Shown here: positions 888 to 63,735 of the stretch, piece by piece
Position numbering within the stretch: position 1 is the stretch's first letter
Layout of the letters: the number at the start of each line of letters is the position of its first letter
Source of the DNA: an uncultured Clostridia bacterium
GTDB lineage: Bacteria > Bacillota > Clostridia > Christensenellales > UBA1242
DNA: 64,000 nt
NCBI GenBank assembly: GCA_947382485.1
Contig: CANCYS010000003.1
Span: 62,001-126,000, forward strand
Reading direction: 5' to 3'
Notes under the pieces: generated by a model
The model's database searches: none
The model's input: the letters and a program-made list of their open reading frames with translations, nothing else
Told to the model about the DNA's origin: nothing
Made by a program: the position numbers and the translations under genes

Positions 888-3800
888 TTAATTTTTATTA
901 TCAAAAATCATATTATTATTCAATTCATCAACATATTCAACTAAGTCTTCATCTAAACAAATCTCATCATAAAAAGCATTATTTTGATATGAATCTCCGC
1001 TAGAAACAAAGGTTGATGAATATGGTCTAGTATAATTATATACTGCATATAAATAATATGTTGGTTCATCTATATGTGCTGTACTAGAACTATTATATGC
1101 CCAAATAATAGTTGAATCCTTTGCAGTACTATAAACTATATCATTATAAGTAAATTGTGTAATTGATTCAGCAGTTAAATAACCATCTATATATTTGTTT
1201 GCTGATAACATCCAACCAATGAATTTATCAGAACTTTCTGCTGGGACATATGACAAAGTAAATTGAGCATAGTTCTGAGCCTTACCAGTATTAACCACTT
1301 CATAGGTAGAGATGTCATTCAAACCTGCACTGCTGCTTGGTGCTAAATATTTAATCGTTATTTCTGTAAATTTATAAACTGCATAAGCATGAACATCTGA
1401 ACCATAAAAATTAAATATCGCTTGACTACCCTGTGCAAAATAATAATCTGAATTTACACCACTTATTTCACCACTTGCATCTAAAATAGCAATTAAACTA
1501 TCTTGAACTGTATCATAAAATGCCCAATATACCAATTTTACATTAAGTGGAAGAATTATACTTGTTTCATCATCTGAATTTGCAGACTTAAAAGTTAAAA
1601 ACTCTTTATCATAAGTTACAGTTTGATTTTTTACAGCTGTCATATTTGTAGCCATATTAAGTGCACCCATACCAAGAATTGAAGTATCAAAATTACTTGG
1701 TAAATAATGATAAGAAACTGTATAGTTATTTGCTTTCCAAGTGGCTGTTAAAGTTACGGCATCTTCTGTTGTTTCAGAATTTGAACGTAAATTCATAAAT
1801 TGAGAGGCCTTAACTACAATATAATTATTTACATTTTCTGGATCTAAATATTTACCATTTGTAGTTGTAAACTTAATTTCATTAGAATCTTGATAATAAT
1901 AATGTTCACAATCATCTGTTAAATCTTTAAGTGTCCAACCCATAAATGTATAACCTTTTCTACTTGGGTCTGAAACAGTAAACTTATTATTGAACTTAGC
2001 CTCAGTTGGATTTAAAGCATCACTTTCAAAATAACCACTGCCTAAACTATCACTTAAATTATATTTTAAATAATATGTATTTGGATTCCAAATTGTAGTG
2101 ATTAATATTGTACCATTTGTATTTGAATATAAATTTTTAAAATATGTAACATCACTATCTGTTTCGTATCTAAAAATATTGCCAGTTTGAGTTGTTGTAA
2201 GCACAGTTGACTTTCCTGCAAAGTGAATTACAGTTTCCCCAGTTGTTTCATCTGTTTCATTCATTAAAGTAACTATCCAACCAGCAAAATAATATCCAAA
2301 TGGAATTGTTGTAGGTCTATTAATTGTAAACCATTGATCATAAATTGCAGATGTTGGATTTGACAAATCGGCTGTTCCTGCACCCACATCATAAGTAATA
2401 TTATAAACATTTGCCGACCAATTCGCAGTAAAAGTAACATAATTATTAACATTAGAGCATAAATTCATAAATTTTTCTACCCCAACTGGGAATATTATAT
2501 TTTGATTTGTGCTACTAAATGATTTAATCAAACCATCTTGAACAAAATAAATATTATATGATTCATTGCTGTTAAAATCTTTCGCATTATAACCTGAAAA
2601 TGACCAACCTGTAAAAGTATAACCCGTCTTTACTGGATTAACAATAGTAGTCCAATTTGAATCAGAAATTGAAGTTGGCATAGGATATTTATATGTTGCA
2701 GTTATATCCACATAAGAATTATATGATCCATTAGTTTCAAAATTAATATTATAAGTATTAGCTGACCAATTTGCAGTAAAAGTTATGGTTGCATCATGTA
2801 CAGCAGTTAAATTTTTATACCATGTTTCCTTTGTTGTTGGAGTAAATGTTATACTTGTGTCAGTTGTTGTTTGATATGTCATTATAGTTTCACCATAACT
2901 ATGAGCAGTATTATCCATACCAGAAATTGACCAACTTACAAATGTATACCCTGTTTTTATTGGATTTGAAATTTTTAAATCTGTATCAAAAATTCCAACT
3001 ATTGGAGATATTCCACCAGATTTTCCATCGTTATAATTATAATTGATATTAAAATTATTTGCATTCCAAATTGCAGTAAATGTTACTTTTGCACCTTTAT
3101 CGGAATTCAAATTTTTAAAATATGTATATATTGATGATGGCGAGAATGTAGCTCCATTAAATGATAATGTTGTTGAAGAATCTGTTCCATAATAGTGTGT
3201 TATTGGCTTATTAGTAACATTATCACTAATATTCATTCCTGTAATTTTCCAACCAGCAAATCTATAACCTGTTCTTGTTGGATTTGGAACATAAAATACA
3301 CTATCATAATATGCATAATTCACCATGCTACCACCAGTAGTGCCACCATTCAATATATATTCAATATTATATTGATTCGATGTCCAATTTGCAGTAAGTG
3401 TAACATTTCCAGAAGTAGAATTTAAATTCTTAAAATATGTTCCTGCACTATAATAAACCTTGTTTGTTCCATTCCATGAAGTGTTGCATAATCCTGATGA
3501 TGAACCATATTTTGCAGTTGAAGTATTGATATTTGAAGCTGTCCAACCAGCAAATGTATAACCTCTTCTAACAGGATTTTTAACTATAAATGTTGTATCG
3601 TATACTGCGGATGTTGGATTACTATAATCAGTTGGGTTATCCCCATTGTTGTTGTAAACATAATTTATATAATAAGTAGTTACCGACCAATTGGCTGTTA
3701 AATAAACATATCCATCTATTGAACGCATGTTTTTAAATGAAGTTCCTGTAATTCCACTTTTTGTTGTAGTTGAAGCAGGATATGTTGTTCCACCCAAAAC

Positions 3801-6779
3801 TTTCTCACAATCACTTGACATACCTGTAATTGACCAACCTGTAAATACATATCCTGTCCTAGACGGATTACTTATTGTATAAGTTGTATCATAATACATA
3901 TAACTTGGAGCAGATGTTCCAGAAATTCCATAATTAAAATCATATGAAACTGAATATGAATTTGGTGTCCAATAAGCATACAATGTAGTATCACGGGTAA
4001 AATATGTATTAGATTTTAAAATTGACCCACCTATGTTAATTACCTGTTCTCCATTACCATTGGTTGATGTATAATAACCAAGAAATCTATAACCAATTTT
4101 TGATGGGCATGTTATATTAGTTATAGTTCCATAATATGGATTTGATCTATAACACACATTATAAGTTTGATAAATAGCACTGGTTCCTTCGTCAGTTGCA
4201 TTTTGATTATCTAAATCTAATTTATATGAATATGGAGCAATATATCCATAAAAATAATAGTATCTTTGTTCCTTACTAAGTGTATATTGACTACCACTGC
4301 TTCCTGCATAACTTAATGATGAAATAGACGAAGCATTTCTTGACTGACTTGTGTCACTATAATACCAACTAGATACGTAACCACCAGTAACATCATATGA
4401 TGGCAACGTTATTGGAACTTCTTCTAATGTACTTTTATAATTAACTAATATTGCTGAATCTGTATTTACTAACGAAGTATTAGATATTTGATTAGATGAA
4501 CTACTATATGGAGACATATTATAGTAATAAAAAAGATATTGATATATTTCTGAATCTGAAACTGACCAACTATTAATTTTAACACCTGTCCATGTATAAC
4601 TAAATTGTCCTGAATAATAAACCTTATTATCTTTCCATGTGACATTAAAACTATTAATTCCTCCGCTATACGAATAAGTTGCAGATAAACCCATATAATC
4701 AGAAATTGAAGTACTTGTAATTTTAAAATCAAATGTATTTGCGAATGTTAAATTTGCAGTAGCACTATTAATATAATATACAGAAGGATAATCTCCTAAT
4801 GTAATTGAAAAATCATGATCACCCCAAGTATCGCTAGCCCAAAATGTCCAACCATTAGTAGTTGATGAAACATAATTATCAATTGCATAATTATTCATCT
4901 CTATTTGCTCAGCATCATCTTTATTTCCATATATAGTAGTAAGTTTCTCGGCATAAACTACGATATAATTATCATCTTTATCAATGAGTTCTAAACATTG
5001 ACCAACTTTCATTCCCTTTATTTCATATTTTTTAATTTCATATGTAAGATTTTTTTCATGACCAAAAATTTTAATTGTCTTCAGTCCTTCTTCTTCTCCA
5101 GTAACATAAACAATAAATCCAGCATTAATAACAGGAACTAAATAATCGTTCATTAAAAAACTATTTAATGGAGTAACATAATTATTATTTTTATTATTAG
5201 CATCAAATAAATAAACTTCTTTTACACCTTGCATATCAGTTTGTTTAGATATAATTGAAACACCATTAACAATTGGAGCAATCATACCATTATCTTTAAC
5301 ATAAATATGATCTTCAGGATTAATTAAAATTTCACCATCAATGTTCATTGCACCCCAAAAACCATCTTTTGTTATAGCAAAAACATCACTATCAACTCCA
5401 CTTGCACTTGCACCACTTGTAACTAAATTATATGTTTCATCTGAAAATTTTACTATTTCTTCAACTTTATCATTATGATAAATTCTAAGCAATCTTAAAT
5501 TTGTAAGTAATGTATTTGTTCCAGCACGAATAATCATTTCCCATTTTGCTGAATTATAACTTACAATCTTATCATTTTCCTTGTTATAATATGAACTTTC
5601 AAACTCATCAACCAATAAATTATTGTTAACTTTTTGCTGACAGATATAATAACTTTCTTCTAATGCATTATTATTACCGGTTGTAGCTGCTCCAAAACCT
5701 TCATTTAATTTATAATCAATTTGAATTGGTGTTTCAGGTAAAAAATCATAAATTAAATAAGTATTATTAATAAATATTTGATTACTTCCATCTGAAACTT
5801 TAATACTTGAATTTGTCAGTTCACTATTATTTAAAGTATATTTTGTTTTTTCAATAAAAAATTTATGATCTGACAAAATATACGCATTAAATTTAATTGA
5901 TATTTTCTCATCAACAAAAACATTTTCATAAACAATTTTTTCAAAACCATGCTTAGTTAAATAAACTAAATATACACATTCGCCATCAACAATGTAAAAA
6001 CAATTATCATTTCCATTAACTGTTATACCAATGTCATCATAATAAAATGTTGATATTTTATTTTGGTTGTTTGTATTAACCTTTATATTATTAAGTTCAT
6101 AATAATAAAAATCGGAAACAAAACCATTTGCACCTCTATCATTTTGATAGTTTATAATAAAATAATTTTCTTTCAATGTGATAGGTTCAATGAAACCTGC
6201 ACCATCAGTTGCATCAAAATTAAATACTTCTGCTTTTTCATTACCCAAAATTTCAAAATCGCCAAAATAAATCAAACTATAATATGCACAAGTATATTGC
6301 AATTCTCCATCAGCAAAACCTTCACTATCATAATCACTTATAATAAAGACATATTCATCATTATAAACAGGCATTAAATATTTAATAAGCAAAGAATCTT
6401 TTTTTCCATATAATTCAGTTAAATCTTTACTTACAAATTTACCTTCACTATTTTTATTAAATACATAAAAATGAAAGCCATCTAATTTTTCAGCTATAAA
6501 ATAATTTGCACCAAATACAACAATATCATCATAACTTATATCATTTGATAAATATGGTGCACCGTCTATTGGTTGAAGTTCATAAGAATTTAAAACTGAA
6601 TTTTTATTAATTTCATCTGCAAGCAATTTTTGTGAATCAGTGAAACCAACAGTTGGAATTGTTGAATGTGGATTTTTTTTCTTTATGCCCAAAACGCATC
6701 CCAAAATTATTGCTGCAACGCAAATTACTGAAATACATGAAATTAAAGCTATTTTCATTGACTTTTTCACTTGTTTCAC
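888..6779 (-). CDS. Giant membrane-anchored protein with InlB-type (Listeria-Bacteroides) beta repeats
   Basis: About 1,963 residues. The N-terminus has a short basic stretch and one hydrophobic segment (about residues 8-32) that ends before a KKK, so it is most likely a signal anchor. The ILGC in it is a poor lipobox. Residues about 40-620 are a region of unknown fold rich in Y, N and D. The C-terminal half carries about ten degenerate beta-grasp repeats of the Flg_new type, with the signature GYxFxGW...LTANW. No LPXTG sorting signal is seen. The frame is open to a TTG at 6797 without a ribosome site. I prefer the GTG at 6779, which has AAAAGG 6 nt upstream and lies about 29 nt from the predicted transcription start. 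A role in adhesion or envelope function is inferred from the repeats only. Confidence 0.75.
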   Translation of the reverse strand: MKQVKKSMKIALISCISVICVAAIILGCVLGIKKKNPHSTIPTVGFTDSQKLLADEINKNSVLNSYELQPIDGAPYLSNDISYDDIVVFGANYFIAEKLDGFHFYVFNKNSEGKFVSKDLTELYGKKDSLLIKYLMPVYNDEYVFIISDYDSEGFADGELQYTCAYYSLIYFGDFEILGNEKAEVFNFDATDGAGFIEPITLKENYFIINYQNDRGANGFVSDFYYYELNNIKVNTNNQNKISTFYYDDIGITVNGNDNCFYIVDGECVYLVYLTKHGFEKIVYENVFVDEKISIKFNAYILSDHKFFIEKTKYTLNNSELTNSSIKVSDGSNQIFINNTYLIYDFLPETPIQIDYKLNEGFGAATTGNNNALEESYYICQQKVNNNLLVDEFESSYYNKENDKIVSYNSAKWEMIIRAGTNTLLTNLRLLRIYHNDKVEEIVKFSDETYNLVTSGASASGVDSDVFAITKDGFWGAMNIDGEILINPEDHIYVKDNGMIAPIVNGVSIISKQTDMQGVKEVYLFDANNKNNNYVTPLNSFLMNDYLVPVINAGFIVYVTGEEEGLKTIKIFGHEKNLTYEIKKYEIKGMKVGQCLELIDKDDNYIVVYAEKLTTIYGNKDDAEQIEMNNYAIDNYVSSTTNGWTFWASDTWGDHDFSITLGDYPSVYYINSATANLTFANTFDFKITSTSISDYMGLSATYSYSGGINSFNVTWKDNKVYYSGQFSYTWTGVKINSWSVSDSEIYQYLFYYYNMSPYSSSSNQISNTSLVNTDSAILVNYKSTLEEVPITLPSYDVTGGYVSSWYYSDTSQSRNASSISSLSYAGSSGSQYTLSKEQRYYYFYGYIAPYSYKLDLDNQNATDEGTSAIYQTYNVCYRSNPYYGTITNITCPSKIGYRFLGYYTSTNGNGEQVINIGGSILKSNTYFTRDTTLYAYWTPNSYSVSYDFNYGISGTSAPSYMYYDTTYTISNPSRTGYVFTGWSITGMSSDCEKVLGGTTYPASTTTKSGITGTSFKNMRSIDGYVYLTANWSVTTYYINYVYNNNGDNPTDYSNPTSAVYDTTFIVKNPVRRGYTFAGWTASNINTSTAKYGSSSGLCNTSWNGTNKVYYSAGTYFKNLNSTSGNVTLTANWTSNQYNIEYILNGGTTGGSMVNYAYYDSVFYVPNPTRTGYRFAGWKITGMNISDNVTNKPITHYYGTDSSTTLSFNGATFSPSSIYTYFKNLNSDKGAKVTFTAIWNANNFNINYNYNDGKSGGISPIVGIFDTDLKISNPIKTGYTFVSWSISGMDNTAHSYGETIMTYQTTTDTSITFTPTTKETWYKNLTAVHDATITFTANWSANTYNINFETNGSYNSYVDITATYKYPMPTSISDSNWTTIVNPVKTGYTFTGWSFSGYNAKDFNSNESYNIYFVQDGLIKSFSSTNQNIIFPVGVEKFMNLCSNVNNYVTFTANWSANVYNITYDVGAGTADLSNPTSAIYDQWFTINRPTTIPFGYYFAGWIVTLMNETDETTGETVIHFAGKSTVLTTTQTGNIFRYETDSDVTYFKNLYSNTNGTILITTIWNPNTYYLKYNLSDSLGSGYFESDALNPTEAKFNNKFTVSDPSRKGYTFMGWTLKDLTDDCEHYYYQDSNEIKFTTTNGKYLDPENVNNYIVVKASQFMNLRSNSETTEDAVTLTATWKANNYTVSYHYLPSNFDTSILGMGALNMATNMTAVKNQTVTYDKEFLTFKSANSDDETSIILPLNVKLVYWAFYDTVQDSLIAILDASGEISGVNSDYYFAQGSQAIFNFYGSDVHAYAVYKFTEITIKYLAPSSSAGLNDISTYEVVNTGKAQNYAQFTLSYVPAESSDKFIGWMLSANKYIDGYLTAESITQFTYNDIVYSTAKDSTIIWAYNSSSTAHIDEPTYYLYAVYNYTRPYSSTFVSSGDSYQNNAFYDEICLDEDLVEYVDELNNNMIFDNKN
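1500..4240 (-). repeat. Array of about ten InlB-type beta repeats within the large surface protein
   Basis: Each unit of roughly 75-110 residues begins with an alternating Y-x-I-x-Y strand, passes through NP.R.GYTF.GW and closes with (L/F)TANW or YAYW. Units have diverged in sequence and in the length of the insert after GW, so this is a protein-level repeat and not a DNA tandem repeat. Confidence 0.8.
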
Positions 6780-44381: not shown

Positions 44382-46526
44382 TTAACCATTAGATTTTTGG
44401 TTATTCTGCGAAGCAAGTTTCTCAATTTCTTCTCTTGCTATACGTTCTTCTCTAATTCTTAACTGTTGTTCATCAATTTGACTTTGAGTCTTATTTGAAG
44501 AGTTTTCCGATTTCCCATTTAATTTATCCAAATAAGATTTAGCATCTTCAATAGATTGCAATTCATCTGAAAAGTCATTATCATTTTGTATTTTTTTCAA
44601 ATAATTTAACCTTTCCCTAATCATCTCACTTGCTCTTCCATTAAGTTGTCCCAAATTTTGAGCTTCTATTTCCAAGTCAGCCAAAGCCAAATCATTATAT
44701 TGTTTAATAGTATTCTCTTGATACCTAATAAACTTAGCAATACTTTTCTTTAATTCTTCTTTTGTATCATCATTATTACATGTTTCAACCATAAATTGAA
44801 GAGCAGAAAGTTCACCGATTCTACCTCTTCTTTCATTAGGATTTAATTTATAACAAATTTTCTTCAATTTCAAAAGATAACCATAAACATCACTACCCGA
44901 CTTATAACCAGAACCTGTAATACTTTCTTCAATATTATTTTGAAGTCCATCATTAATAATAGAGTCTGTTGCATGTGTAAGTTCGTGCGAAAGTGTCATA
45001 ACAAGTTCTGAAACACTTTTAATTTTGCTAAGGTTAATATTTATAGATTTTTCACCATTTCTATCCCTAAAAGTACCAAGTGCTCCTTTATTTTCAAAAG
45101 TTACAGGTATACTTTTTAATTTTCTAGACTGCATAAAATATGAAACATATTTAATACAAAAGTTCTCTTTTTCTTCCCTAGAACTTCCAAAGCCAAGATT
45201 ATTAAAATCTTCTTTGATATTAGAATTATTAGAGTTAATAACGTCCATTAAAGCAACTTTTTGTTGTTCATAATTCAAAGATTGAACATCGTCACCTTTT
45301 CTGAGTGCATAATCAGATTTTTGAGAAAGAAATGTAATACGTGATGTTTTAGTAACACCAATAAATTCATCAATTTTATTAAATGCAAGTTTATCAACTT
45401 CTTTTAAAACAGAAGAATCAAAGAAAACACCAAGAAGTTTTCTCATATCCCTTTCAGTCATTGATTCAACTATTCTTTTTGCAATTAAATCAGCAACTGG
45501 GCCAAACTTTTTGAAATTTTCTGCATAGTTATCTGCTAAAAAACCTTTTAAATAAGATGATAAAATGAGTGTTGCCTTATTTTTAGTAATCTCTTCTTTA
45601 CCTGGTTTTTCAAGTTTAATATCTTTATCTTTTTCTTGCTGAACCTGTTCAGGTGTTTTATTTTTATTTTCAGTCTCTTCCTTTTCTGACACAACAGCCA
45701 AGTTAATCTGCCTAAGCAAATACTTACGAATTTCTAATGCTGATTTATTAATAAGCATTTTTGTAGGCAAATTCAAATAAAAACCTTTTCCACCTTTTTC
45801 AGCAGAAACACTAATAATTCCTTCATTAGAATTTTTACCAGCAGAAAAAGTTAAATTTTTAGATATTCTTATCTTATTTTCTTCTGAGTAATTTTCTAAA
45901 CTATTATTAAATTGATTTTCAACTTTAACTACAATTTGTCCAAGTAATTCAATCTTCTTTTTTATAGGAGTAATTTTAGGATTAACATTTTCAATTTGTT
46001 CGTTATCTTTTGATTTAGGTTTTGCAATTTCTTTCAGCAACTTATCATCAATAAGTTCTAAATCAACATCACCAACACTATCAAACTCATTGTAAAGTTT
46101 TCTACTTTCTTCATCAACTTTAAGTGAAAGATTAGGTTTTTCAGCCATTATAGTTGAAAAAGTTTCAAGTCCACTTAAATTCAAAATTTTATGAATAGTA
46201 CCAATATTAAATTCATGAATATGCAAATTCCCTTCTTTTTCATTTGCATCATTATTAGGAATAATTTCAGTTAAGAAATTTTCTATATCAACTTTAAGTT
46301 CACTTTTAAAATTAACATTATCATTAACACTATTCGCAAATTCACACATCTCAGATAATGCAAATAGTTTTTCTGGTACGTTTGTAACATTTTCAGGATT
46401 AGAATCAATGTTCTTAATAATCATAATCCAACGTTTCAAATCCACATCAGAAAAGTTGGCTGGCATTGGCATAGAATTATCATATTTTTCAAAAATTGAA
46501 TTTAAATCTAAATTGGTATTTTCCAT
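44382..46526 (-). CDS. Large predicted cytoplasmic zinc metallopeptidase-like protein, function unknown
   Basis: 714 residues without signal peptide or membrane helix. The sequence has an acidic N-terminal half, a Lys/Glu-rich linker (about 285-325), and near residue 514 the zincin motif HELTHATD (His514, Glu515, His518). About 54 residues later comes RRGRIGELSAL, whose Glu572 is a candidate third ligand. The last 80 residues are a charged coil. This fits a gluzincin-like metallopeptidase, but I cannot assign a family. It has its own strong promoter and GAGGG before the ATG. Confidence 0.75.
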   Translation of the reverse strand: MENTNLDLNSIFEKYDNSMPMPANFSDVDLKRWIMIIKNIDSNPENVTNVPEKLFALSEMCEFANSVNDNVNFKSELKVDIENFLTEIIPNNDANEKEGNLHIHEFNIGTIHKILNLSGLETFSTIMAEKPNLSLKVDEESRKLYNEFDSVGDVDLELIDDKLLKEIAKPKSKDNEQIENVNPKITPIKKKIELLGQIVVKVENQFNNSLENYSEENKIRISKNLTFSAGKNSNEGIISVSAEKGGKGFYLNLPTKMLINKSALEIRKYLLRQINLAVVSEKEETENKNKTPEQVQQEKDKDIKLEKPGKEEITKNKATLILSSYLKGFLADNYAENFKKFGPVADLIAKRIVESMTERDMRKLLGVFFDSSVLKEVDKLAFNKIDEFIGVTKTSRITFLSQKSDYALRKGDDVQSLNYEQQKVALMDVINSNNSNIKEDFNNLGFGSSREEKENFCIKYVSYFMQSRKLKSIPVTFENKGALGTFRDRNGEKSININLSKIKSVSELVMTLSHELTHATDSIINDGLQNNIEESITGSGYKSGSDVYGYLLKLKKICYKLNPNERRGRIGELSALQFMVETCNNDDTKEELKKSIAKFIRYQENTIKQYNDLALADLEIEAQNLGQLNGRASEMIRERLNYLKKIQNDNDFSDELQSIEDAKSYLDKLNGKSENSSNKTQSQIDEQQLRIREERIAREEIEKLASQNNQKSNG

Positions 46527-47650: not shown

Positions 47651-48715
47651 ATGAAAAAAGGAACAATAGTTTTAACTGGTGGCGGAACGGCTGGCCATGT
47701 AACGGTAAACATAAATCTTCAAAATGAATTAAAAAAACATTTTAACAAAATCATTTATATTGGTTCAAAAAATGGTATTGAAAAAGAGTTAATTAAAAAA
47801 AATACCAATTATGAATACTATGAAATAACAACTGTTAAATTCGAAAGAAAAAAGTTATTTAAAAATTTATTAATACCTTGTAAACTTTCAAAAGGAATTA
47901 AAGAAGCAAAAGAGTTAATCAAAAAATTTAACCCTGAAATAATTTTTTCAAAAGGTGGCTATGTTGGACTCCCTGTTGTTATTGCTGGAAAAAAATTAAA
48001 TATCCCTGTAATATGTCATGAAAGTGATATAACAATGGGACTCGCTAATAAATTAGCAAAAAAATATGCCACAAAAATTTGTACAAATTTCGAAATTACA
48101 GCAAAACAAAATGGAAATAAATGCACATACACTGGCATGCCAATAAATATTAGCCCACTATCAAAACAAGAAGCAAAAACAAAACTTCAAATAAAAACAT
48201 CAAAACCTATCCTACTTGTTACTGGTGGAAGTTTGGGTGCAAGAGCAATTAACAATTTTATTTTTGAAAACATAGACGAATTAACAAAGTTATATTATGT
48301 TATACATATAGTAGGAAAACATAATTTAAACAAAAACATAACTAATATTAATTATAAACAAATTGAGTTTAGCAATGACATGTGGACAATTTTTAAAGCC
48401 ACAGACTATGCAATTTCAAGAGCTGGTGCAAATACAATTATTGAACTTTTGGCAAATAAAATACTAACCATTTTTATTCCATTACCAAAAAATGCATCTC
48501 GTGGCGACCAAATTGATAATGCTAAATATCTAGAATCAAAAAACCTATCAACAACAATTCTTCAAGAAGATTTAAACCTAGAAAAACTGCAAAACTCATT
48601 AGAATATCTTAAAAATAATGCAATTTCAATTAAAAATTCAATTAAAGATGCAAAATTTGAAGATGGAACTTCAAAATTAATTAATATAATTTTAGACACA
48701 AAAAAACACATGTAA
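47651..48715 (+). CDS. murG: UDP-N-acetylglucosamine transferase MurG
   Basis: 354 residues. A GT-B glycosyltransferase with GGGTAGHVTVNINL at the N-terminus, SKGGYVGLPVVIA, the linker VTGGSLGARAINNF and the UDP-GlcNAc site SRAGANTIIELLA, closing with GDQIDNAKYL. The GTAGHV opening, not GTGGH, is typical of a clostridial MurG subtype. It converts lipid I to lipid II on the inner face of the membrane. No strong ribosome site precedes the ATG. It is probably transcribed with the glycosyltransferase upstream. Confidence 0.88.
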   Translation: MKKGTIVLTGGGTAGHVTVNINLQNELKKHFNKIIYIGSKNGIEKELIKKNTNYEYYEITTVKFERKKLFKNLLIPCKLSKGIKEAKELIKKFNPEIIFSKGGYVGLPVVIAGKKLNIPVICHESDITMGLANKLAKKYATKICTNFEITAKQNGNKCTYTGMPINISPLSKQEAKTKLQIKTSKPILLVTGGSLGARAINNFIFENIDELTKLYYVIHIVGKHNLNKNITNINYKQIEFSNDMWTIFKATDYAISRAGANTIIELLANKILTIFIPLPKNASRGDQIDNAKYLESKNLSTTILQEDLNLEKLQNSLEYLKNNAISIKNSIKDAKFEDGTSKLINIILDTKKHM

Positions 48716-48730
48716 TATACATGTGTTTTT
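48700..48730. terminator. Bidirectional terminator after murG and after the PII-like gene
   Basis: Stem AAAAACACATGTA/TACATGTGTTTTT with a 3-nt loop and A and T runs on both sides, between converging genes. The murG stop codon is inside. Confidence 0.85.
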
Positions 48731-48739
48731 TATTAAAAA

Positions 48740-49114
48740 TTATTCAACATTAATTTTTTCATATTCACAATCCATTCCTGCAACCAAAGAAACAGGCAAC
48801 GCAAACACCATTCCATGTGCCTCAGACTTATAATCCACAACTGAATAAATTGCCTTTATCGTAGGCACTGTGAGTTCATTTTTAGCAAGTATCAAAACCA
48901 ATGTATTTTCTGGATCAACACTAAAACCTAAAAACTTTTTTTGTATCTTCGAAATACCCTTTGCTTGCAAAAGAATTGCACCATTAGAACCGACTGATTT
49001 TGCTGCCTCAATAACATCAGATTCAAATCCCCTTTTAACAACTGTTAAAACAAGTTTATATTCTTCATCTGTAAAAATCTCATCTTCTTCAAAAGTAACT
49101 TTAACTTTTTCCAT
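48740..49114 (-). CDS. PII-like protein (second copy) associated with DUF1538
   Basis: 124 residues. The pattern YKLVLTVVKRG...VIEAAKSVGSNGAILLQAKGI, a short loop, then VLILAKNELTVPTIKAIYSVV follows the PII beta-alpha-beta topology, ending with GMVFALPVSLVAGM. The long T-loop of classic GlnB is missing. Genes like this are known beside DUF1538 membrane proteins, where they probably sense a ligand and control transport; this is inference. GGAGGGG precedes the ATG. It lies 9 nt after the first PII-like gene and ends the operon. Confidence 0.7.
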   Translation of the reverse strand: MEKVKVTFEEDEIFTDEEYKLVLTVVKRGFESDVIEAAKSVGSNGAILLQAKGISKIQKKFLGFSVDPENTLVLILAKNELTVPTIKAIYSVVDYKSEAHGMVFALPVSLVAGMDCEYEKINVE

Positions 49115-49123
49115 AAACCCCTC

Positions 49124-49504
49124 CTATTCAACAAATGGACCTTTCGCACCCATATATCCTAAAATATCAATAACAAATCCCTTACCATGACCTGTTTTGT
49201 TAAAATCAAATTCTTTGCAAATGTTAAGCATAAATATGTCTGTAATTTCTTTTTGACAAGTTGCCATAATAAAGCATTCATCAATTAAATATCCGTTAAT
49301 ACTTTTTTCAATAGAATTCCTTGGAATACCACAACACTGAACAGCGGCAACAACCCTTCCACCGTTATTCACAATAAATGATAACAATTTGTCCATATAT
49401 TTTATATTAACAATAAAACAACACATAGACAATTCATTAATTTGTGAAGGATGAAGTTGTTGTGAAACAATGACAAACTTTTTTTTATTCTTTTTATCTT
49501 TCAT
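49124..49504 (-). CDS. PII-like protein (first copy) associated with DUF1538
   Basis: 126 residues. A polar Lys-rich start leads to LSMCCFIVNIKYMDKLLSFIVNNGGRVVAAVQCCG, then a short loop and IFMLNICKEFDFNKTGHGKGFVIDILGYMG, again a PII-like fold with a GHGKGF glycine turn near the end. It is clearly diverged from the neighbouring copy. It overlaps the DUF1538 stop by 11 nt, and its GAGGAG site lies in that gene, so it is translationally coupled. Confidence 0.65.
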   Translation of the reverse strand: MKDKKNKKKFVIVSQQLHPSQINELSMCCFIVNIKYMDKLLSFIVNNGGRVVAAVQCCGIPRNSIEKSINGYLIDECFIMATCQKEITDIFMLNICKEFDFNKTGHGKGFVIDILGYMGAKGPFVE

Positions 49505-51035
49505 GTTGTTTCTCCTCTTTCTGTTTTAAAAGTTCATATTCTTCTTCAAGTGCTTCCATATTAGAATACATTTCAGTGCTATAAGAAATTCGTAATGCCT
49601 TCTTTTTCTCATTTCTCTCTTTAACAGCATTCTCAATTCGATATACAACTCCAAGCAACTGTAAAACAACAATTGGTGACATTGCAACGATACCAATAAG
49701 TCCAAAACCATCAACCGCACTTGTTGTTTGTGAAGCCAATGCAATCATAATTGGAAGTATAAAAGCAGAAGTCATAGGTCCAGATGCAACTCCACCAGAA
49801 TCAAACGCTAAACTAGTAAATATACTTGGAACAATATACATCAAAACCAATGCTATCAAATATCCTATCAAAATAATATAGAAAAAGTTAATATTAAAAA
49901 TAATTTTTAATGCTGAAAGCAAAATCGCAATAGCCATTGAAAAAGCAATAGCCAACATAACTACATAATATGGTATACTTCCCTTTGTTGCACTCTGAAC
50001 TTGTTTTGACAATACTATAACAGAAGGTTCAGAAAACGTAATAATAAAGCCCAATACCAAACATAAAACAATAATAACTGGCACACTTAATGTTGAAATA
50101 AAGTTGCCAATCATAGTACCCATTTCAGATATACCAAAATCAATACCAAACAAGAACATAAACAAACCAACAAATGTAAGTCCTAAACCAAATAAAAATT
50201 CAAGTTTCCTTTTCATAGGAAGTTTTATAAATATTAAATCATAAATATAAAAAACTATTGTAAGCGGTATAATTGCAAGTGAAGCACTTTTTAATACATT
50301 TAAAAATATATTTATTTGAGCAGAACTTTCAATTAAAGTTTCTGCCTTATCTCCAAAACAAACAAAAAACAACAAAACAGCAACAACAGGTCCAAGTGAG
50401 GCTAAACCAAGCATACCAAACACTTCTCTATTTGTGTTCTTTTTATTAAATTTTCTAGAAACACCTGCCGAAATTGCAAGCAAGAATGGTGCTGTTATAA
50501 TTCCTGTTGTCGCACCACCAGCGTCAAAAGCAATTGCTATATGTTCTGGTTTAACTTGTGTGCAAAGTAGAAAAATTACTGCAAATAGCACTGTATAAAC
50601 ATATTTAACTTCAATATTTTTAATTATTCTAAAAATTCCAAGTGCAATAAAAATTCCTACACCTGAGCCAATAAAAAATATAAGTAATGTTCTAGAAATC
50701 CCTATTCCAGAACTCATAATTTGATTAGAAAAAACTGTAACATCTGGTTCTGCAACTGTTGCACAAAAACCAAATACCATTGCGAATAAAATAAATATAA
50801 TAAACTTTGAAGCCTTGTTAACTGAGTTAACCATCAAATCACCCATTGGCATAATGGTTGAATCAATACCAGTTAAAAGTAAAACTTCACCAAAACAAAT
50901 CAAAACAACAGAAACAAAAAATTTAATAAGAATAGAACTGTCCATTGGATAAAAAAACAAATGGACAGTCAAAACTATTACCATTATTGGTAATAACGCT
51001 AAAAAAACATTAAGAAATTTTTTGAAAAACTGCAT
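49494..51035 (-). CDS. DUF1538 integral membrane protein with internal duplication
   Basis: 513 residues, about 12 membrane helices in two homologous halves. Each half has a GID-type helix (LLTGIDSTIMPMGDLM and FLFGIDFGISEMGTMIG), then an AEP/SEP turn (ATVAEPDVTVFSNQI and ITFSEPSVIVLSKQV), then a FD(A/S)GG segment (AFDAGGATTGIIT and AFDSGGVASGPMT). This inverted or parallel duplication looks like a transporter. Known members occur with PII-like genes, and the substrate is unknown. The C-terminal 40 residues are a charged coil. ACGAGGG precedes the ATG, and the coiled-coil gene ends 14 nt upstream. Confidence 0.88.
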   Translation of the reverse strand: MQFFKKFLNVFLALLPIMVIVLTVHLFFYPMDSSILIKFFVSVVLICFGEVLLLTGIDSTIMPMGDLMVNSVNKASKFIIFILFAMVFGFCATVAEPDVTVFSNQIMSSGIGISRTLLIFFIGSGVGIFIALGIFRIIKNIEVKYVYTVLFAVIFLLCTQVKPEHIAIAFDAGGATTGIITAPFLLAISAGVSRKFNKKNTNREVFGMLGLASLGPVVAVLLFFVCFGDKAETLIESSAQINIFLNVLKSASLAIIPLTIVFYIYDLIFIKLPMKRKLEFLFGLGLTFVGLFMFLFGIDFGISEMGTMIGNFISTLSVPVIIVLCLVLGFIITFSEPSVIVLSKQVQSATKGSIPYYVVMLAIAFSMAIAILLSALKIIFNINFFYIILIGYLIALVLMYIVPSIFTSLAFDSGGVASGPMTSAFILPIMIALASQTTSAVDGFGLIGIVAMSPIVVLQLLGVVYRIENAVKERNEKKKALRISYSTEMYSNMEALEEEYELLKQKEEKQHER

Positions 51036-51049
51036 TTATCCCTCGTAAC

Positions 51050-53023
51050 TTATTCAAAATCAATACTACCAATAATATCACTATCAATTCTTCGTCTATT
51101 AGACTTCTTTCTTCTTCTCTTTGCTGGGGTCTTTTGAACATCTACATTCTTAGCACTCTTTGAACTCTTTTTAGATGATCCTGTTTCATTAACAGCATTT
51201 TTAATTGCATCTTCATCAATTTCAGTCAATTGACTGTTGCTTAAATAAGCATTCTTATTTTGTGAAGATAGTTCAAGAAGTTTTTTATCCATTTCAAGAT
51301 TTGAAATATTAAGATTAGATTTAAGTTCTCGTCTAAGCATAGCACCAGCATTCTGTTTGTCAGAACTTGCCTTTTGTAAATCTTTAATTTCTTTTTCTCT
51401 ACGTTTAAAATTACTTTGAACTTCTTGAAGTTTAGCGTCCCTATCAATTTTTTCAAGATATGATTGTTTCTTCATATCTTCAACATGTTGCTTATAAGAT
51501 TCTTCTAATTCTTTAATCTTAGATTCATATTCTTCTGCAACTTTTTGTTTTTCAAGTTCAGCTTGTCTCAAACTTTCTTCAATTCTTTCATCTGCTTTCT
51601 TATTCTTTTCAATCAATTCATCTAGTTTTGCTTGCATTTCAGCCTGACGTTTTTCGTTTTCTTCATTAACAAATTGATTTAGTTCATCATTATGATTAAT
51701 TACACCAACTTGATCATACGCCATTTGATTATAACCGTCTACATAAACATCATTAGGATTATAATACATATCTGTCATATAACCAGTTTCATTTAGATTG
51801 TTTGGCATATCAGAACTTTCTTCTTTTTTATACATTTCTGTAAATTTATTAATTAACTCATCAGACATAGCCTTAAAGTCTTCTTTCGTCAAAATATCTT
51901 CACGATTAATTTTTTCATTTTGACTATTAAGATAACTTTCATCTTCTGACGCTTTTTCATCATCAGTTTTTTCTATATCTACATTTTCACTTTCATTAAA
52001 TTCAAGTCCATTATCATCATTGCTTGCAGATTCTTCATCAACTCCGTCATCATAAGTCTCTGTATTATCATCAACATTTTCATCTTCATTAATTTCAGCA
52101 GTCTTATCCTCAACTTTTGATGTAGATTCTTTTTCAACATCTTCTTCAAATTTTTCAGATTGCATTGATTCAACTTTCTTCAATCTTTCATTTAATTTTT
52201 CAATGTCATCAACAAGTTTGTCTTCATCTCTCCTTTCATTACCTTCTGCAATACTTGAAAGTTCATTTCCAGAAATAATTTTTTCATTAGACTTATCTCT
52301 AATTCGTTCTTCTTGTTCAAGTTTTTCAAGTCTACTTTTTACTCTTTCAAGTTCAGATTGTTCAATTTTATATTTTTCACCATAAAGGTCATCTTCAAGA
52401 GCAAAATCTTCAACATCAACTTTTGAAGAATATAAAAAGTTTTCATCTTGTGAAGAATCAGGAACAACATTTTGTGTTCTATCACCAAGAGGTTCAAGTA
52501 AGTCATCATTTTCTTCAAACTTATTCTTAGTTTTAGACTGTTGCTCCAATTTGTTTAAATAACTATCAAGATAGAATTTTTTATATGTAGGATCACTGCT
52601 TGCAAGTTGAGTGATTGGTTTTTGTGTTTCAGATTTAATCTGATCAATTCCATGATATTTTTCTTTACCAGATTTCTCTTTCATAAAATCAGCAATACTA
52701 AACTTAACAGCACTATCTGGCCTATCATTCAAAGATTCTTCAACCTTACGATAGTTTTTATTTTTCCATGAAGAAAAATCTTTCATATCAACAGGAGCAG
52801 TTCTAGGTTTTCTTGGACCAAAAAACTTACCAAAAGGTGTAGTTGGTTCAAATTTATTACTCATATTCTTACGAGCCATTGATTTATTTTCATCAGTTTG
52901 CTCGTTTCCTTTCAAACTACTATCAGAAGAAAGAATATTAATTACAACTGGTTCATTACGTGTTGACCTTAACGCTTTCTTGAATAAAGAAAACTCAGAG
53001 TCATCATAGAAAAAATTATTCAT
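51050..53023 (-). CDS. Large acidic coiled-coil protein of unknown function
   Basis: 657 residues without membrane helix or signal peptide. The N-terminal 120 residues contain GKFFGPRKPRTAP and several F-rich motifs. A first coil lies at about 210-290, a very acidic stretch at about 295-400, a Tyr/Asn-rich segment at about 425-455, and a long coiled coil at about 460-580. The C-terminus is basic (AKRRRKKSNRRR). I recognise no family. It might be a scaffold or cytoskeletal protein. It is the first gene of an operon with DUF1538 and PII-like genes, and its promoter carries a palindrome. Confidence 0.7.
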   Translation of the reverse strand: MNNFFYDDSEFSLFKKALRSTRNEPVVINILSSDSSLKGNEQTDENKSMARKNMSNKFEPTTPFGKFFGPRKPRTAPVDMKDFSSWKNKNYRKVEESLNDRPDSAVKFSIADFMKEKSGKEKYHGIDQIKSETQKPITQLASSDPTYKKFYLDSYLNKLEQQSKTKNKFEENDDLLEPLGDRTQNVVPDSSQDENFLYSSKVDVEDFALEDDLYGEKYKIEQSELERVKSRLEKLEQEERIRDKSNEKIISGNELSSIAEGNERRDEDKLVDDIEKLNERLKKVESMQSEKFEEDVEKESTSKVEDKTAEINEDENVDDNTETYDDGVDEESASNDDNGLEFNESENVDIEKTDDEKASEDESYLNSQNEKINREDILTKEDFKAMSDELINKFTEMYKKEESSDMPNNLNETGYMTDMYYNPNDVYVDGYNQMAYDQVGVINHNDELNQFVNEENEKRQAEMQAKLDELIEKNKKADERIEESLRQAELEKQKVAEEYESKIKELEESYKQHVEDMKKQSYLEKIDRDAKLQEVQSNFKRREKEIKDLQKASSDKQNAGAMLRRELKSNLNISNLEMDKKLLELSSQNKNAYLSNSQLTEIDEDAIKNAVNETGSSKKSSKSAKNVDVQKTPAKRRRKKSNRRRIDSDIIGSIDFE

Positions 53024-63484: not shown

Positions 63485-63735
63485 TTTTGCAAAAAACAAA
63501 GTCTCACATCCTTATTTTTAAGGACGCAAGACTTTTGCGTGGTACCACCTTAATTCGTGAAAAACTTTCACCTCATTAACTTTAACGATAGCATAATCGA
63601 GATATATTTCTATATCCATCTCTGGTGCCGAAATTCATTTATAAACTTTGTATTTGCTCCCAGCCAAAGGCAAACTCTCTAAACCAAAAATTTTATAAAC
63701 TACTAAATCACCTTCACAGATTTTAAAAAACTAGT
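63485..63735 (-). ncRNA. T-box leader (tRNA-Phe sensing) of pheST
   Basis: On the minus strand, the T-box AAGGTGGTACCACG is at 63538-63551. The specifier TTC (Phe) is at 63630-63632 in GAATTTCGGCACC. A terminator stem of 16 pairs including G-U (63519-63534 with 63499-63514) is followed by a T-run. TGGT in the T-box can pair with the ACCA end of uncharged tRNA-Phe. When tRNA-Phe is uncharged, the antiterminator should form and pheST is transcribed. The region 63420-63795 holds this element and the promoter, with no gene. Confidence 0.93.
63491..63534 (-). terminator. Regulated terminator of the pheST T-box
   Basis: A 16-bp stem, including three G-U pairs, with a 4-nt loop, then GTTTTTT on the minus strand. 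It competes with the antiterminator that contains the T-box. Confidence 0.88.

Follow-up and report, generated by a model that had tools for sequence, protein, structure and literature searches.

The locus described here raises the question of why a membrane protein built of two homologous halves should be followed, within one operon, by two different PII-like proteins, and what such an assembly would transport and sense. It lies in the window, by which we mean the whole stretch of 64,000 nucleotides from an uncultured Clostridia bacterium that was analysed. The initial annotation had viewed the membrane protein as a transporter made by duplication, its substrate unknown, and had suggested that the two PII-like proteins form a heteromeric regulator in which each matches one half.

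Organisation of the operon

The three open reading frames of the operon, all on the minus strand, occupy exactly the interval 48740-51035 first assigned to them; the gene of the membrane protein (D-D) overlaps that of the first PII-like protein (P1) by 11 nt, and 9 nt separate the latter from the gene of the second (P2). Since the order of D-D and PII genes is repeated in more than 150 loci, it is not a product of chance. The features to which the text refers are the following.

49494..51035, minus strand: D-D, fused DUF1538 (UmpA-UmpB-like) membrane protein, 513 aa, two 7-TM halves (PF07556 twice)
50316..51035, minus strand: N half of D-D, residues 1-240, predicted N-terminus inside; N-terminus and loops 2, 4 and 6 positive
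49494..50315, minus strand: C half of D-D, residues 241-513, predicted to be inverted with the C-terminus inside; loops 1 and 3 and the C-terminus positive
50748..50750, minus strand: codon of Glu96, AEP motif, helix break of the N half, candidate cation/proton site; acidic in 99-100% of DUF1538 halves
50523..50525, minus strand: codon of Asp171, FDAGG motif, helix break of the N half; acidic in 97-100% of DUF1538 halves
50028..50030, minus strand: codon of Glu336, SEP motif, C half; acidic in 99-100% of DUF1538 halves
49800..49802, minus strand: codon of Asp412, FDSGG motif, C half; acidic in 97-100% of DUF1538 halves
49124..49504, minus strand: P1, first PII-like protein, 126 aa, short T-loop, faster-evolving paralogue (hhalign, P tree)
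48740..49114, minus strand: P2, second PII-like protein, 124 aa (PF00543 at 19.7 bits, P tree, PDB profile search)
48700-48735: candidate two-way terminator between convergent genes, palindrome ACACATGTAATATACATGTGT with A and T runs on its flanks

Directly upstream of D-D, the window encodes an acidic, probably disordered protein of 657 aa (51050-53023, minus strand), which has no Pfam match above the cut-off and homologues of which stand at the equivalent place in all five congeneric loci checked. Elsewhere in the window there are a T-box leader (63517-63726, minus strand) and a 714-aa protein (44382-46526, minus strand) that has an HELTH motif like that of zinc proteases and matches SprT below threshold. 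A promoter scan gave 28 candidates against 26.8 expected, and so no informative excess.

The DUF1538 membrane protein

D-D matches PF07556 (DUF1538) twice in one chain (E=4.7e-102, 340 bits against a gathering score of 22.6), and its membership of this family is secure; the proposed origin by duplication and fusion is supported. The NCBIfam model of UmpA fits best on residues 6-224 (4e-36) and that of UmpB on residues 244-458 (1.4e-32), at scores of 124.5 and 113.1 bits that are far below the equivalog cut-offs of 490 and 500, so that we describe D-D as a family member and not as a UmpAB equivalog, and its substrate may differ. UmpA and UmpB of Halomonas zhaodongensis are two 7-TM DUF1538 proteins which co-precipitate and, as a heterodimeric pair, jointly act as a Na+(Li+,K+)/H+ antiporter (PMC5484666); as this activity was obtained in E. 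coli from a clone lacking a PII gene (PMC5484666), PII is not required for transport. Calling the substrate unknown was therefore too strong for the family, and D-D may by homology share the function of UmpAB. DUF1538 is carried by 101 of the 299 genomes sampled from the phylum; in one genome of the same order as that of the window (G076), the protein is 88% identical to its counterpart in Christensenella intestinihominis (loci L070 and L164, respectively), which points to Christensenellales as the probable order.

An AlphaFold2 model of D-D (m54a7d1b663ea; pLDDT 93, pTM 0.90) places corresponding helices in the two halves, with two helix breaks per half that coincide with the (A/S)EP and FDxGG motifs. 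A Foldseek search of the PDB with this model gave no match at E<=0.001, the TM-scores being at most about 0.2, and the model possibly represents a transporter fold that is yet to be solved. Of the three motifs noted at the outset, two contain a residue that hardly varies in either half anywhere in the family, namely Glu in (A/S)EP and Asp in FD(A/S)GG. The GID Asp is general in fused N halves (99%) and rare elsewhere (8% of fused C halves, 0-11% of split proteins), and its occurrence in the C half of the window protein is accordingly not a family feature.

Orientation of the two halves

Topological bias was measured over aligned halves as Lys plus Arg in even loops minus those in odd loops. 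For the window protein this bias is +7 in the N half and -10 in the C half, and this placement of Lys and Arg indicates that the halves of D-D are ANTIPARALLEL. The same holds throughout the fused class, where the N halves average +8.5 (positive in 163/163) and the C halves -7.1 (negative in 162/163), the two halves thus being of opposite bias in 162 of 163 proteins. Where the halves are encoded by separate genes, the first (A) has a bias of +4.9 (positive in 35/35) and the second (B) of -4.5 (negative in 34/35), while DUF1538 proteins encoded as a single gene (single D) average +0.4 (sd 1.7, range -2 to +3) in a small sample of nine. The pattern was weaker on the two Pseudomonadota plasmids checked (Methylocystis A +3 and B 0; Chelativorans B -4).

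The DUF1538 family consequently holds all stages, namely the unbiased single D, the oppositely biased split pair and the fused D-D, and its bias values follow the textbook pattern of dual-topology evolution, in which, as described for DUF606 and related small transporters, an unbiased gene gives rise to a pair of opposite bias and this pair to a fusion (PMC3962082). The tree of D sequences fits this scheme, as the fused N halves are nested in split A, the fused C halves lie beside split B and the single D sequences fall between them. Seven genomes with a single D (G176, G218, G244, G262, G270, G290 and G301) possess no other DUF1538, so that the protein must work alone there, presumably as a homo-oligomer. 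Taken as sequence evidence, these data argue strongly for an inverted-repeat architecture of DUF1538, and this evidence is new.

The PII-like proteins P1 and P2

P2 matches PF00543 at 19.7 bits, below the gathering score of 25, and P1 matches no Pfam family. Profile comparison places both in the PII-like superfamily: the P1 profile aligns with the first of the two domains in tandem PII proteins (98% by hhalign, E=2.6e-13), 52 of 53 such tandem relatives match PF00543 at E<=0.01, and a PDB search with the P2 profile gives PII chains at E=0.001. For a tandem relative (L149) the predicted structure (pLDDT 82, pTM 0.76) itself has the ferredoxin-like fold of PII, with GlnK/PII (GlnK1) as best PDB matches (E=3e-6).

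In alignments inspected by eye, the T-loop of P1 and P2 is shorter than that of canonical PII, which is long and bears the uridylylated Tyr, and no counterpart of Gln39 or Tyr51 was seen in either protein; a Lys near the position of Lys90 is present in the P1 of the window and absent from P2 (canonical PII residue numbers). The description of the pair as two diverged PII-like proteins with a short T-loop is thereby upheld, and the canonical residues for 2-oxoglutarate and ATP appear to be largely missing. PII genes beside DUF1538 are annotated as 'P-II family nitrogen regulator', a label that is probably misleading because the residues seen do not support a link to nitrogen. No canonical PII was found in the window genome (85% complete, 0.94 Mb).

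Association of PII-like genes with DUF1538

Genome-wide, a PII-family protein is present in 40 of the 41 DUF1538 genomes among 79 relatives, and the 38 genomes lacking DUF1538 gave no strong PII-family match and two weak ones (E about 1e-4), a difference (40/41 vs 0/38) with a Fisher p of 8e-22. The PII-like genes lie beside the transporter and are restricted to the genomes that carry it, as is to be expected of a PII protein that regulates a transporter. Linkage of genes does not by itself prove that the proteins bind. No paper describing the pairing was found in the open literature searched, and we conclude that the DUF1538-PII system is real, widespread and apparently undescribed.

Profiles of the DUF1538 half and of the PII family were used to analyse the gene neighbourhoods of 131 loci from relatives and the phylum and of 80 named loci. 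A few of the named loci come from genomes already represented among the 131 (for example L175/L088 and L168/L156), and all fused systems belong to one clade, so that the counts given here are of systems and not of independent events. Fused D-D is accompanied by two or more PII domains in about 158 systems, of which 119 have one tandem PII-PII gene and 37, the window included, two PII genes; none has exactly one PII on an uncut contig. The co-occurrence of both PII copies with a two-half DUF1538 is thereby confirmed for fused proteins. Variants of this arrangement include a D-D whose reading frame continues into a PII-like domain (L040, 464-2269; 601 aa in all), with a further P gene, a fusion which comes from one draft genome and may reflect a frameshift; three PII domains after a fused D-D, as a tandem gene and a third gene (L160, 5517-6511); and two D-D genes in tandem that have two PII in common (L062). 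Two fused D-D lack PII, one with no PII match in its whole genome (L069, 879-2570) and one with none within about 4 kb (L133, 3837-5336); the remaining fused D-D loci are cut by contig ends. L069 also carries a low-complexity insertion between its DUF1538 halves.

The 35 split systems comprise 15 with one PII, 13 with a tandem PII and seven with two PII genes, and single D is accompanied by one PII in 9/9 cases. On two alphaproteobacterial plasmids, one gene with the annotation P-II family nitrogen regulator comes after the split DUF1538 genes. The operon of one genome (G038; L072, 4418-5645) has decayed, with a break that affects D and P jointly: the second DUF1538 half runs into the end of a PII gene in the manner of a deletion. 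At another locus (L078, 842-4013) a transposase-type gene pair (1160-3534) disrupts the first DUF1538 gene.

History and selection

In the tree of PII-like domains, all first domains of fused systems group together (support 93). Separate from them, a clade with support 95 unites the second domains of both fused and split systems with the PII of single-D systems; of the 15 split systems that have one PII, three place it in this clade, and the remaining twelve make up a neighbouring group. Inner forks are uncertain in this short alignment of 100 columns. This topology indicates that P1 and P2 are old paralogues and that P2 shares a lineage with the lone PII of single-D systems. The position of three split-system PII inside the P2 clade further implies that P1 was lost in at least a few split lineages while the partner remained unchanged.

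Across the family P1 evolves faster, its mean p-distance being 0.76 against 0.64 for P2. Comparisons inside the genus show a similar level of constraint on P1, P2 and D (dN mostly 0.2-0.35, dS about 1), and P1 and P2 are under equal purifying selection. As dN of P1 is well below dS in all congeneric pairs, its interpretation as a decaying pseudogene was ruled out.

Candidate ligands and c-di-AMP

The diadenylate cyclase domain (PF02457) is present in most genomes of the order; it was not found in 46 of the 47 small genomes of the window's family, including every one that bears DUF1538, nor in the window genome itself. The absence of this enzyme makes c-di-AMP an unlikely PII ligand in the window lineage. 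A riboswitch search upstream of the window operon returned none. Among the 80 loci and the window, a c-di-AMP riboswitch directly precedes the operon at one, L123 in G246 (5571-5698, minus strand), where 19 nt separate it from a DUF1538-PII operon of the split type. This class of riboswitch is known for K+ and osmolyte genes, and its placement here fits a role in K+/Na+ homeostasis.

Discussion

Employing these combined analyses, we favour with moderate confidence the interpretation that the operon encodes an UmpAB-type antiporter capped by a heteromeric PII-like regulator. By this account the operon would yield a cation/proton antiporter of the DUF1538 kind together with its PII-type regulator; the Glu of the EP motif and the Asp of the FDxGG motif, which stand at the helix breaks of each half of D-D, would bind Na+/K+ and H+; P1 and P2 would associate into one hetero-oligomeric cap that docks on the cytoplasmic face of the antiporter; and this cap would open or block it according to a sensed small ligand or ion, which in the window lineage would be other than c-di-AMP. 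The gating step would be analogous to the action of GlnK on AmtB and SbtB on SbtA, the precedents for PII gating of transporters (PMC8352866). The transport by D-D, the P1-P2 association, its docking, gating and ligand are steps that we infer. Antiparallel halves would expose two different, though homologous, surfaces on the cytoplasmic side of D-D, and a two-faced regulator would suit such an asymmetric target better than a plain homotrimer. The fusion of P1 and P2 in tandem in 119 fused and 13 split loci favours a joint heteromeric regulator, as the initial annotation had proposed.

Two other explanations are each unlikely, though they deserve more weight than those that follow. In the first, ligand sensing and regulation would fall to P2, and P1, as a degenerate paralogue, would do no more than complete or bias the assembly; this agrees with the inclusion in the P2 lineage of the one PII present in single-D systems and in some split ones, with the faster evolution of P1 and with the want of a Pfam match for P1 of the window; against it, purifying selection on P1 within the genus equals that on P2 and D, and P1 is never missing from PII-bearing fused systems on uncut contigs. 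The second, which we hold to be about equally improbable, is that DUF1538 has another substrate, that the PII pair reports a related metabolic state and that antiport by UmpAB is either a side activity or confined to its subfamily. In the papers found, assays cover a single DUF1538 pair (PMC5484666), the UmpA/UmpB equivalog models are not reached, and the high-confidence model of D-D brought no PDB match that suggests a substrate; the acidic residues kept family-wide at both helix breaks nevertheless fit cation/proton binding, and one operon (L123) is under a c-di-AMP riboswitch.

The suggestion that P1 and P2 work as independent sensors, one for each half of the transporter, has become improbable. 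It would account for the two PII domains with fused D-D against one with single D, and for the equal constraint on P1 and P2. However, 15 of the 35 split systems share one PII between two differing halves, at least three split systems retain a P2-type PII after the loss of P1, which is the kind of event named in the initial annotation as counting against it, and antiparallel halves would present different faces to the cytoplasm; mirror-tree distance correlations gave no signal for a pairing of P1 with the N half and P2 with the C half (interaction -0.16 [-0.39, 0.09]), and tandem fusion argues that P1 and P2 act as one unit. That the PII-like proteins are merely co-transcribed and act on another target without touching the transporter is the least credible proposal, as PII proteins often do target enzymes but the exclusive co-occurrence over a patchy distribution, the tight gene overlap and one D-D-P fusion (L040, a single draft genome) all oppose it.

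Compared with known systems, the favoured antiporter with its heteromeric cap resembles UmpAB in belonging to PF07556, in its two homologous 7-TM units and in the match of its halves to the UmpA and UmpB models; it differs in that the window D-D is fused in one chain, lies below the equivalog cut-offs and is followed by two PII genes, none being mentioned in the UmpAB paper (PMC5484666). With SbtA-SbtB and AmtB-GlnK it has in common a PII-fold gene adjoining a membrane transporter, and the cytoplasmic cap proposed here, although DUF1538 is without detectable similarity to their transporters and its partners, unlike SbtB and GlnK, are two diverged or tandem PII domains with a short T-loop. DUF606 (PMC3962082) and SMR-type dual-topology families likewise combine unbiased single, oppositely biased paired and fused members in one family, but the DUF1538 unit has 7 TM segments against about 4 and is coupled to PII. 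PstA, which binds c-di-AMP, is also a PII-like protein of Gram-positive bacteria; the system differs from it in that no diadenylate cyclase occurs in the window genome or the DUF1538-bearing members of its family. DUF1538-PII would be a hitherto undescribed form of PII-regulated transport, set upon an experimentally known antiporter family. A more far-reaching claim, which is tentative and on balance doubtful, would be that DUF1538 is a fold new to the PDB, with a unit of 7 TM that is uncommonly large among dual-topology families, whose antiparallel asymmetry is read by a new kind of heteromeric or tandem PII cap with two non-equivalent faces, sensing neither 2-oxoglutarate nor c-di-AMP.

In DUF1538, all stages of inverted-repeat evolution coexist alongside a co-evolving regulator. 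If the favoured interpretation is true, the homeostasis of monovalent cations would join the processes run by PII proteins, and would do so in very many Clostridia.
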